DNA of 64,000 nucleotides from Mucilaginibacter sp. MD40 (lineage in GTDB: Bacteria; Bacteroidota; Bacteroidia; Sphingobacteriales; Sphingobacteriaceae): contig NZ_NRSW01000001.1 in the NCBI RefSeq assembly GCF_002288635.1, positions 243,086-307,085 on the forward strand, in the 5' to 3' direction. Below are positions 45,301 through 48,824 of the stretch, piece by piece (the first letter of the stretch is position 1; each line of letters opens with the position of its first letter). The translations under genes were made by a program, and so were the position numbers. Below the pieces are notes generated by a model, which was given only the letters and a program-made list of their open reading frames with translations, did no database searches and was not told where the DNA came from.

Positions 45301-46254
45301 CTACAGCTCGCTCACCACCTTTTCTACCCAACCTTTACCCCATTCGTTAACCTCTTGTTCGCTCCACAAAGAAGGGTAAAATATACGCTTCTGGAAACGG
45401 GGTGGCAGGTATTTTTGCCAGTTGGTACCACCGGTAGCCTTAATTTCCTCTGGCTCGCGGTGCAGGTAACGCACGGCAGATTTATAGTGACTCAACGGCC
45501 AGTTTACATTTACGTTAATATCTAACTGGCGCAATTGTTCTTCAAGGGCCCTGGTGTTTTCGCCCTTCAGCTGCATTTGGTGTAGCAAAGTGTTAAAATT
45601 GGTACGATGTACCGATTTGCCTAACTCGATAAATGTTTTGGCGTATTTTTTCTCGAACTGATTTAGCGTAAGCGTTTTTTTACCGGTTGATAACTCGGTA
45701 GCGCCATATTTCCAGTAGATCTGGTCAAATTGCTGCTCAACAGATGCGTCGCGTAGCTTGTCCCGATATGCGGGAGCAACCAGGTTAATAAAGTCTGTAG
45801 CGTGGATCTCTATCATGCGGTATTGCCCGCTCTGGAAACCGCTGGCCGGTAGCAGCGACATCCTGAACTGCAGGAATTGCTCTTTCTCCATACCATCCAC
45901 CATGATCTCGAATGAGTTGGTTAATGCCTCAAAATACCGGTTAATCCTTTTTACACGTGCGGTAAAAAAATCTACGGTAAGGCTTTCCTTTTCCGCAATT
46001 TGCTTGCACTCGTGTAACGAAAGCTTAAAATACAGCTCTGTTATCTGGTGGTACATTATAAATATCTCCTCATCCGGGAACTGCGTCTTGGGGCTTTGCA
46101 GGCTCAGCAGCGTATCCAGATGAATGTAATCCCAATAGGTCAAAAAGTCGGCATGCAGCAAGCCATCCAGGTAGGAGGTCATGTCCTGCCCCATCGCATC
46201 ATATTTTTCCTGCAGCAGGTTTAATCTTTTTTCAATTTCGGGCGAGATGCTCAT
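45301..46254 (-). CDS. Tryptophan 2,3-dioxygenase family protein
   Basis: This 317-residue haem enzyme is predicted to open the indole ring of tryptophan to N-formylkynurenine. It has the family segment LDGLLHADFLTYWDYIHLDTLLSLQ, EEIFIMYHQITELYFKLSLHE with a haem-pocket His, and GFQSGQYRMIEIH. I chose the ATG at 46254: the longer frame would overlap the next gene (46274-46768), and a TATATTTG box (minus strand, 46260-46267) lies 5 nt upstream. No kynureninase or formamidase gene is in the window. Confidence 0.87.
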   Translation of the reverse strand: MSISPEIEKRLNLLQEKYDAMGQDMTSYLDGLLHADFLTYWDYIHLDTLLSLQSPKTQFPDEEIFIMYHQITELYFKLSLHECKQIAEKESLTVDFFTARVKRINRYFEALTNSFEIMVDGMEKEQFLQFRMSLLPASGFQSGQYRMIEIHATDFINLVAPAYRDKLRDASVEQQFDQIYWKYGATELSTGKKTLTLNQFEKKYAKTFIELGKSVHRTNFNTLLHQMQLKGENTRALEEQLRQLDINVNVNWPLSHYKSAVRYLHREPEEIKATGGTNWQKYLPPRFQKRIFYPSLWSEQEVNEWGKGWVEKVVSEL

Positions 46255-46273: not shown

Positions 46274-46768
46274 TTAATTTTTTGATTGCGATGCTTCAAT
46301 TTTCTCAATACACCGCATTCGGTCTTTTACAATATCCGCCATACCTTTAAAATACCACGGCTCGGAGCTTCTATCAAAGCTGAATTTAAAATCTATCCAT
46401 AAAAATTTGAAGCCTATTATATAGCCGCCGCCATCGGTACAGTCGGGGCAACCAAAGGTTCTTGTTAAGTTGGATAGCAGCAGCAAAGGGGCATTAAATT
46501 TAAGGTCGCTGAAGTCACCCTTGATTATCTGTATAGCCTCTACGCTTTTTTTTGAAGGCTTTTGAAGAATGAGTTGGTCGTCGGTAATCGCGTATTCCAG
46601 ATTGCACATATCACATTCGCCTGCAAAATAACCTACGTACTCCGTTCCAAAACTAAGCCTAATGATCGACATGGCAAATAAGGCAGTAATGATCAAAGCC
46701 GCTTTTGTACGCTTAGAAAGCTCTGTCCAACTGATACTAATATTTACCGATTCTTCTTTAATACCCAT
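46274..46768 (-). CDS. Small membrane protein of unknown function
   Basis: This 164-residue protein has one membrane helix (about 17-38, AALIITALFAMSIIRLSFG) and an extracytoplasmic domain with two CxxC-like pairs (CDMC near residue 53 and CPDC near 111). Cys pairs may form disulfides or bind metal. It lies 19 nt upstream of the dioxygenase start. No family recognised. Confidence 0.65.
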   Translation of the reverse strand: MGIKEESVNISISWTELSKRTKAALIITALFAMSIIRLSFGTEYVGYFAGECDMCNLEYAITDDQLILQKPSKKSVEAIQIIKGDFSDLKFNAPLLLLSNLTRTFGCPDCTDGGGYIIGFKFLWIDFKFSFDRSSEPWYFKGMADIVKDRMRCIEKIEASQSKN

Positions 46769-46832
46769 ATCATTAATAACCCTTAGATGATAAGGTAACC
46801 CGATTTCATAGAGAAGTAGTTGAAAATGTTTC

Positions 46833-46862
46833 TTGATTTTTAATTTTGATTTTTTAATTTTG
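46833..46862 (+). promoter_or_regulatory. Predicted promoter for the fluoride riboswitch transcript
   Basis: TTG at 46833-46835, a 19-bp spacer and TAATTTTG at 46855-46862 fit the Bacteroidota consensus, and a second TAATTTTG lies at 46841-46848. The box ends 14 nt before the riboswitch, correctly placed to transcribe it. Confidence 0.55.
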
Positions 46863-46874
46863 ACTTATTCACAA

Positions 46875-46930
46875 AAGGCAATGGTGTTCTGCCTATTTGA
46901 ACCGCTGCAAAGCTGATGACGCCTACTCAA
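46875..46930 (+). ncRNA. Fluoride riboswitch (crcB motif)
   Basis: The sequence from 46877 follows the conserved core of the fluoride-sensing RNA: GGC-AATGGTG (46877-46886), TGCC (46890-46893), AACCGC (46900-46905), AGCTGATGACGCCTAC (46911-46926). Stem GGC/GCC (46877-46879 with 46891-46893) and stem GCT/AGC (46904-46906 with 46911-46913, loop GCAA) are present. The pseudoknot pairs GGTGT (46883-46887) with ACGCC (46919-46923). The downstream gene encodes a CLC protein with the features of fluoride exporters, as expected. Confidence 0.88.
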
Positions 46931-46960
46931 ATGGATTTTTTATTTATTTGCTTGTAGGCT

Positions 46961-48277
46961 ATGTTCAAAAATATCATCTCAAAACAGTTAAATCTTTTTA
47001 GTTATCTATTGCGGTGGACGCTTATTAGTATACCTGTAGCTATTGCCATTGGTAGCGTAGTCGCTTTTTTTCTGTGGCTGCTTAGCTGGGCCACCCATTT
47101 CAGGTTTGGGCATACCTGGTTACTTTATCTTTTGCCCCTGGCTGGTATTGCCATCCATTTACTTTATAAATGGTACGGGCAAAGCGCCGAACGCGGTAAT
47201 AACCTCATCATCGATGAGATACACCAGCCGGGTGCAGGTGTACCTAAGCGTATGGCCCCGCTTATTCTGCTGACAACCGTTATCACCCATTTATTTGGTG
47301 GCTCGGCCGGGCGCGAGGGAACAGCGGTGCAAATTGGAGGGAGCCTCGCTAATTTATTTGGCTCCTGGTTTAAACTGAATGAGGCGGATAAAAAGCTGAT
47401 ACTTACCGCCGGCGTTGCAGCCGGATTCGGGGCTGTTTTTGGTACGCCGCTAACGGGTACCATCTTCGCGCTTGAGGTTATTGCTATAGGGCGCATACAG
47501 TATAATGCTTTGCTGCCTTGTTTAATTGCCGCTCTTATTGGAGATGTTACCGTATCAGCATGGGGTGTACATCATACCCAGTATCATATTGATGTGATAA
47601 ACGCGGGCGGAGATTTTTACGGCAAGCATTTACCGCTAAGCTTTTTGTTACTGGGTAAAATAATACTATCATCTGCTTTATTTGGCCTGGCGTCAATGGC
47701 ATTTGCCCGGGCGGTACACCTGGTTAAGAATACCGCTCTAAGGTTAATAAAGATAAGCTGGCTCATCCCGGCAATAGGCGGTATAATTATCATCGTTTTA
47801 ACGTTTGCGTTAGGTAAACCCGACTATCTTGGACTGGGGGTGGATGCGGAATATCCTGGTGCGGTAACCATAGTATCCGCCTTTAAACATGGCGGTGCCG
47901 ATGCTTTTAGCTGGTTATGGAAATTGATCTATACCTCCGTAACGCTTGGAACGGGTTTTAAAGGCGGTGAGGTTACACCCCTATTTTATATTGGGTCCAC
48001 ATTGGGTAATAGCCTTGCGGATATACTAAACGCGCCGGTTAGTCTTTTTGCCGCGCTTGGCTTTATCGCTGTATTTGCCGGTGCTACCAACACGCCGCTG
48101 GCATGTACGCTGATGGGTATTGAACTCTTCGGCGGAGAGTATGCCATGTTCTTTGCAGTGGCCTGTTTTACGGCTTACTTTTTTAGCGGCGAACAGGGTA
48201 TTTACTCCGCGCAGCGAACAGACACTGCCAAGTTGGGTGGTTACCGAAACAGGCTATTTTCGAAATACAAACTTTAG
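46961..48277 (+). CDS. CLC-family fluoride/proton antiporter (CLC-F type)
   Basis: This 438-residue CLC transporter is predicted to expel fluoride in exchange for protons. Four features place it in the fluoride group: GNNLIIDE at residues 79-86 where chloride-type CLCs carry GSGIP, GREGT at 117-121, GAVFGTPLTG at 158-167, and GTGFKGGEVTPLF at about 318-330. It has about ten or more hydrophobic helices and no CBS domains, which many CLC-F members also lack. A fluoride riboswitch precedes it, supporting the assignment. UspA follows 67 bp later. Confidence 0.85.
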   Translation: MFKNIISKQLNLFSYLLRWTLISIPVAIAIGSVVAFFLWLLSWATHFRFGHTWLLYLLPLAGIAIHLLYKWYGQSAERGNNLIIDEIHQPGAGVPKRMAPLILLTTVITHLFGGSAGREGTAVQIGGSLANLFGSWFKLNEADKKLILTAGVAAGFGAVFGTPLTGTIFALEVIAIGRIQYNALLPCLIAALIGDVTVSAWGVHHTQYHIDVINAGGDFYGKHLPLSFLLLGKIILSSALFGLASMAFARAVHLVKNTALRLIKISWLIPAIGGIIIIVLTFALGKPDYLGLGVDAEYPGAVTIVSAFKHGGADAFSWLWKLIYTSVTLGTGFKGGEVTPLFYIGSTLGNSLADILNAPVSLFAALGFIAVFAGATNTPLACTLMGIELFGGEYAMFFAVACFTAYFFSGEQGIYSAQRTDTAKLGGYRNRLFSKYKL

Positions 48278-48344: not shown

Positions 48345-48824
48345 ATGAAGATCAGCCGCATTTTGATCGGTATAGATGACAGCAAATATGCTGAGTACGC
48401 TACCAGCTATGGCTTTGATTTAGCTAAAACCTTTAACGCCCATGTAGCACTGGTACACATTGTTGAACCTGCCGTTACGCCTGATACCGGCAGCGGTGCC
48501 GATAACCTGATGGGTATGCCATTGCCTACGGCAGATTATAACGACGTTACCGTGATGGATATACAGCGCGAACATGCCGATAACATCATTCACCAGGTAA
48601 TTGAAAAGTACGGTAAAGGTTTAGAGATCACCCATTTTAATGAATTTGGTTCAACTGCCGATGGCATACTTAACTGCAGCGAAGAGTTCAAAGCCGATCT
48701 GATCGTTATCGGTACGCATAGCCGTACGGGTATCGACAGGTTGCTGATGGGAAGTGTAGCCGAAAAAGTGATACGCAATGCGAAGGTACCGGTAATGGTA
48801 GTACCGCTTGGGGAAAAGGATTAA
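48345..48824 (+). CDS. Universal stress protein (UspA family)
   Basis: This 159-residue protein has the UspA fold: start KISRILIGIDDSKYAEYATSY, middle helices and the C-terminal ATP-type motif GTHSRTGIDRLLMGSVAEKVIRNAKVPVMVV (G-2X-G-9X-G-S). It is probably an ATP-binding member. It follows the fluoride transporter by 67 bp on the same strand and may share its transcript, but no direct link to fluoride is known. Confidence 0.9.
   Translation: MKISRILIGIDDSKYAEYATSYGFDLAKTFNAHVALVHIVEPAVTPDTGSGADNLMGMPLPTADYNDVTVMDIQREHADNIIHQVIEKYGKGLEITHFNEFGSTADGILNCSEEFKADLIVIGTHSRTGIDRLLMGSVAEKVIRNAKVPVMVVPLGEKD

Follow-up and report, generated by a model that had tools for sequence, protein, structure and literature searches.

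Riboswitch control of CLC-F antiporters is established (Stockbridge et al. 2012, as cited in PMC11139923), and about 30% of CLC-F proteins are controlled in this way (PMC11139923). For the full-length fluoride riboswitch, covariation including the hairpins has been published in a study whose main text does not mention Bacteroidota (PMC13273304). A limited literature search yielded no paper on a fluoride riboswitch in Mucilaginibacter, or on start-codon control by such a riboswitch in Bacteroidota, an absence that carries little weight. In this phylum, translation is initiated largely without Shine-Dalgarno pairing, and textbook translational riboswitches are therefore not simply transferable to it.

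Here, we analysed a 64,000-nucleotide stretch of Mucilaginibacter sp. MD40 (the window), in which a fluoride riboswitch precedes a gene of the CLC-F type (clcF). Judged from sequence comparison, the two very probably form a fluoride-sensing and export module, with the leader riboswitch controlling translation of the antiporter that follows. The original prediction had already paired them as such a module in a Bacteroidota genome, and both the covariance-model match and the CLC-F tree described below argue for this pairing.

Aptamer, promoter and alternative stem

The features of the locus, all on the forward strand, are the following:

46855-46862 (+): Bacteroidota-type -7 box TAATTTTG (TAnnTTTG), a consensus match only
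46868-46932 (+): fluoride riboswitch aptamer (RF01734, crcB motif), 58.0 bits, E 1.7e-13
46883-46887 (+): pseudoknot 5' strand GGUGU, partner of ACGCC at 46919-46923
46919-46923 (+): pseudoknot 3' strand ACGCC, whose GCC is also used by the alternative stem
46921-46926 (+): 5' strand GCCUAC of the predicted anti-aptamer (OFF) stem, from folding and covariation over 64 leaders
46954-46959 (+): 3' strand GUAGGC of the predicted OFF stem, at positions -7 to -2 relative to the AUG
46961-48277 (+): putative CLC-F type F-/H+ antiporter, 438 aa, ATG start, Pfam PF00654 (Voltage_CLC) E 3.2e-70
47195-47206 (+): CLC-F signature GNNL, residues 79-82, with I as the next residue
47309-47323 (+): CLC-F signature GREGT, residues 117-121
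47954-47980 (+): CLC-F signature GFKGGEVTP, residues 332-340
48345-48824 (+): universal stress protein (Usp), PF00582 E 1.6e-30, 67 bases 3' of clcF

In the cmscan search, the RF01734 model was matched over its full length (positions 1-64), with a score well above the gathering score of 34 bits. The original prediction of an RNA core at 46877-46926, with every conserved block, two short stems and a pseudoknot, is borne out by the sequence and by the RF01734 alignment, which place the stems at 46877-46880/46890-46893 and 46904-46906/46911-46913. The aptamer is predicted to bind Mg2+-fluoride. It is the only RF01734 match above the cut-off in the whole genome; a second candidate of 24.2 bits lies below the cut-off and antisense within a 205-codon coding ORF, and was judged to be a chance match.

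TAnnTTTG is the -7 promoter box of Bacteroidota. Of 125 related loci, 68 have it closely 5' of the aptamer, compared with 3.3% of equal-length stretches of the window, while the -33 box is degenerate. The position of the -7 box would put the transcription start at about the first aptamer base. No sigma-70-type promoter was found at the locus, where the Bacteroidota box fits instead. At the other end of clcF, the Usp gene is possibly the second gene of the same transcript. Among 80 CLC-F loci, a Usp homologue follows clcF in four other Mucilaginibacter loci and lies further away in one Pontibacter locus. On the opposite strand 5' of the riboswitch, the protein of 45301-46254 (-) matched tryptophan 2,3-dioxygenase only in part, scoring 92.6 bits where the cut-off is 390.7 bits, which makes it a distant relative and not an established family member.

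Folding of 46915-46965 gave a hairpin of -15.5 kcal/mol (z -4.8), and none of 200 shuffled sequences was as stable. Its outer part is the GCCUAC/GUAGGC stem, which ends one base 5' of the AUG (46961), and its inner part pairs 46928-46936 with 46942-46950. Because GCC belongs both to the pseudoknot 3' strand and to the 5' strand of the OFF stem, the two structures are mutually exclusive. The predicted pairing around the clcF AUG ranks 9th among the 52 ORF starts in the window, which is high, not extreme, and was not used as support.

Covariation among related leaders

Comparison with related loci, read in register from the conserved UGAUG, likewise indicated an alternative stem that covers the start region and uses some of the same bases as the ligand-bound fold. 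Three classes, with CCUAC, CCUGC or CCUGAUU, were distinguished among leaders of the ACG/GCG type, and the 3' strands change with the class to GUAGG, GCAGG and AAUCAGG, respectively (UAC/GUA, UGC/GCA, UGAUU/AAUCA). Since classes defined by the first 8 bases were too coarse for a swap test, as classes differing only in the first base share a stem, a pair-by-pair count was used in its place. This count covered 64 distinct two-strand constructs with the strands joined by a fixed spacer, including the hand-set rows L104 and L113 and excluding the hand-set row L037, which was out of register.

Cells changed on both sides numbered 72, compared with 30.5 in shuffled data, and the covariation score was 0.371 compared with 0.189; neither value was reached in any of 500 shuffles, although the leaders are related and the counts are not independent events. 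When the partner strand was slid by 1-3 columns, the covariation score was only 0.02-0.10. The main exchanges were A-U/G-C (32:27), C-G/A-U (49:12) and C-G/U-A (58:4). The proportion of pair cells that pair (85.4%, compared with 73.5% in shuffled data, 0/500 as high) is biased upward by the placement of the 3' strand through complementarity to the conserved CC. The weight of the covariation argument lies with the two-sided changes and the slide control. Two of the five measures, namely pairs with change on both sides and further pair types, were not above the shuffles, probably because the columns contain few letter types.

Six loci have CGUC in place of CGCC, and in all six the pseudoknot partner is jointly changed from GGUG to GAUG. 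At least three of these loci (L042, L098 and L102) also carry A for G in the alternative stem. A single C to U change is thus matched in the pseudoknot and in the alternative stem, suggesting one base with two alternative partners.

Of 83 leaders, 69 have the 3' end of the stem at -4 to +15 nt from a start codon (median 2), compared with 24.8 (sd 3.8) expected from random placement. The stem end encloses a GUG start in 13 leaders, and almost all relatives with short leaders have the stem abutting the start codon. A minority of the relatives have another layout or a long leader, and no alternative stem was found in leaders L096, L099 and L106. Long clcF leaders occur in L084, L086, L092 and L094, where a GUG presented by the stem begins a frame of 57-77 codons with little conservation. 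This frame stops close to the clcF AUG and may encode a leader peptide or serve translational coupling.

Control of clcF and the nature of its product

Taken together, the platform is most likely a translational ON switch, in which fluoride would lock the pseudoknot and free the start site. Without fluoride, GCCUAC at the 3' end of the aptamer would pair with GUAGGC just 5' of the AUG, thereby breaking the pseudoknot and hiding the start region from the ribosome. With Mg2+-fluoride bound, the GGUGU/ACGCC pseudoknot would be held and the OFF stem opened, leaving the AUG region single-stranded so that the exporter could be made. The ON direction is the one that the physiology of an exporter requires, and control would act at translation rather than at transcription. 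In Flavobacterium johnsoniae, local structure at the start codon and adenines 5' of it tune initiation (PMC6847099), and Bacteroidia ribosomes are reported to sequester the anti-Shine-Dalgarno tail (PMC9976891). With these two properties, a stem at -7 to -2 is plausible as a direct block to initiation.

An alternative is control of transcription, with fluoride preventing the hairpin from acting as an intrinsic terminator or as a pause or Rho-dependent site. Intrinsic termination is the mode of action of well-characterised members of the class, that of Bacillus cereus among them, the covariation of a full aptamer plus terminator has been published (PMC13273304), and a U run is indeed present here at about 46936-46941. 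However, this run lies in the loop of the stem, which is itself followed by UAUG instead of a U tract, and no intrinsic terminator-like site was found at 46760-47010. Together with the abutment of stem and start codon in the short-leader relatives, this makes transcriptional control improbable, although a Rho-dependent site could escape such sequence-based checks.

Still less probable is a classical translational switch whose hidden strand is a Shine-Dalgarno sequence. The Sphingomonas clcF leaders do carry GGAGG in the same strand, and the AGG of GUAGGC resembles part of such a sequence. However, this AGG lies at -5 to -3, only 2 nt from the AUG and hence too close, and its presence follows from pairing to the conserved CCU; no Shine-Dalgarno core was found in the leader, where GUAGGC is the strand that would be hidden. 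The sequestered tail and the tuning of F. johnsoniae initiation by local structure and upstream adenines, cited above, also speak against this explanation. The preferred reading is thus direct occlusion of the start region.

The published CLC-F signatures are GNNLI/GMGLI, GREGT/V and GEVTP (PMC11139923). All three were found in the 46961-48277 protein, so that the hallmarks named in the original prediction (GNNL, GREGT and GFKGGEVTP) are each located. The best solved relatives are three CLC-F entries, with 6D0J of Enterococcus casseliflavus at E 3.4e-65, while the next other CLC has an E of 5e-7; the closest named protein, from M. achroorhodeus, is 91% identical. Over 392 residues the identity to 6D0J is 38.5%, and both proteins share the gating Glu in GREG and the GGEVTP motif. 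They differ in GNNL and GREGT here versus GMNL and GREGV in 6D0J; the published list of CLC-F variants includes both GREGT and GREGV. In contrast, the E. coli ClcA sequence reads GREGP, and nothing in it aligns with GNNL.

A maximum-likelihood tree of 32 rows placed the protein with 6D0J and the riboswitch-linked relatives, apart from E. coli ClcA and ClcB and from the two other CLC proteins of the genome, with 100/100 support, in agreement with the placement that had been predicted. All 200 bootstrap trees contain the split as a single branch, and only this split between CLC-F and chloride-type proteins was used, given the long branches to the chloride-type rows. That the protein is an ordinary chloride transporter that merely chances to follow a riboswitch is extremely improbable: it is recognised by general models (Pfam Voltage_CLC, NCBIfam ClcB-like), but its scores with the ClcA and ClcB models (91.9 of 482 and 52.1 of 350 bits) are far under the cut-offs, the CLC-F signatures are complete, the tree groups it with CLC-F, and in 94 related loci the riboswitch is followed by a member of the same family, always with GREGT and GFKGGEVTP. 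Fluoride export is the predicted function. The genome holds three CLC genes, the other two being chloride-type-like, and no CrcB/Fluc gene was found in it. The presence of CLC-F without CrcB agrees with the published observation that CLC-F and Fluc are nearly exclusive of each other (PMC11139923).

Distribution and comparison with known systems

The riboswitch is carried by 182 of 301 Sphingobacteriaceae genomes and by 54 of 396 genomes in a sample of the phylum, and the same start-codon layout was seen in Siphonobacter, Chitinophaga, Taibaiella, Filimonas and Ferruginibacter. In another genus of the same family (14 distinct leaders, L003-L040 loci), the aptamer keeps ACUCC and its AACAGGC is complementary to GCCUGUU, which runs from the G of the AUG through codons 2-3; this pairing (about -11.6 kcal/mol) is invariant and hence without covariation support. 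The conserved Met-Pro-Val start of that protein (AUG CCU GUU) may be fixed by the RNA. We consider it likely that Bacteroidia have a distinct fluoride-riboswitch platform, in which the 3' strand of the aptamer pairs onto the start codon region and the ligand gates ribosome access without a Shine-Dalgarno sequence, the pairing of AACAGGC with codons 2-3 and the G before them being a second solution.

The same riboswitch class was also met in other settings. In other Mucilaginibacter genomes (L078-L083), a second fluoride riboswitch lies 5' of the gene of enolase, which is an enzyme sensitive to fluoride. The stem is the same and ends in GUAGGUG, and about 130 nt with a short open frame separate it from the enolase AUG. 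In L112, L117 and L135, the ORFs behind fluoride riboswitches with the same stem resemble other membrane proteins, and their GUG start codons lie within the stem. Vibrionaceae clcF genes (L188, L191, L192 and L207) also lie behind fluoride riboswitches, and the two of these four placed in the tree, Photobacterium L188 and Aliivibrio L207, branch with a mostly Bacteroidota clcF set, which suggests transfer between phyla.

The module itself is expected biology, and the useful part is the mechanism. A small covarying platform at the start codon, with a cheap and non-metabolised ligand, would offer a clean natural system for asking how much local RNA structure by itself governs initiation in the phylum, and is a candidate inducible switch for Bacteroidota.

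As a riboswitch/CLC-F pair, the locus is of a known kind, with Mucilaginibacter as a new organism for it. The clcF genes of Sphingomonas, Aliivibrio, Photobacterium and Chitinophaga show the same RNA class before the same protein family. Compared with the RF01734 class as represented by Bacillus cereus and Pseudomonas syringae, the conserved blocks, both stems and the pseudoknot are all alike, and the RNA likewise lies 5' of a fluoride exporter gene, while the pseudoknot is GGUGU/ACGCC here and GGAGU/ACUCC in the consensus. The platforms are less alike. Sphingomonas leaders carry their GGAGG in the strand corresponding to GUAGGC, and in a Verrucomicrobiales leader a U run comes after a long hairpin, both unlike the Bacteroidota start-codon stem. 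In contrast to the riboswitches of B. cereus and P. syringae, the platform here is a stem ending beside the AUG, without terminator or Shine-Dalgarno sequence, and this start-codon-covering form is a variant absent from the literature covered by our limited search and worth testing.
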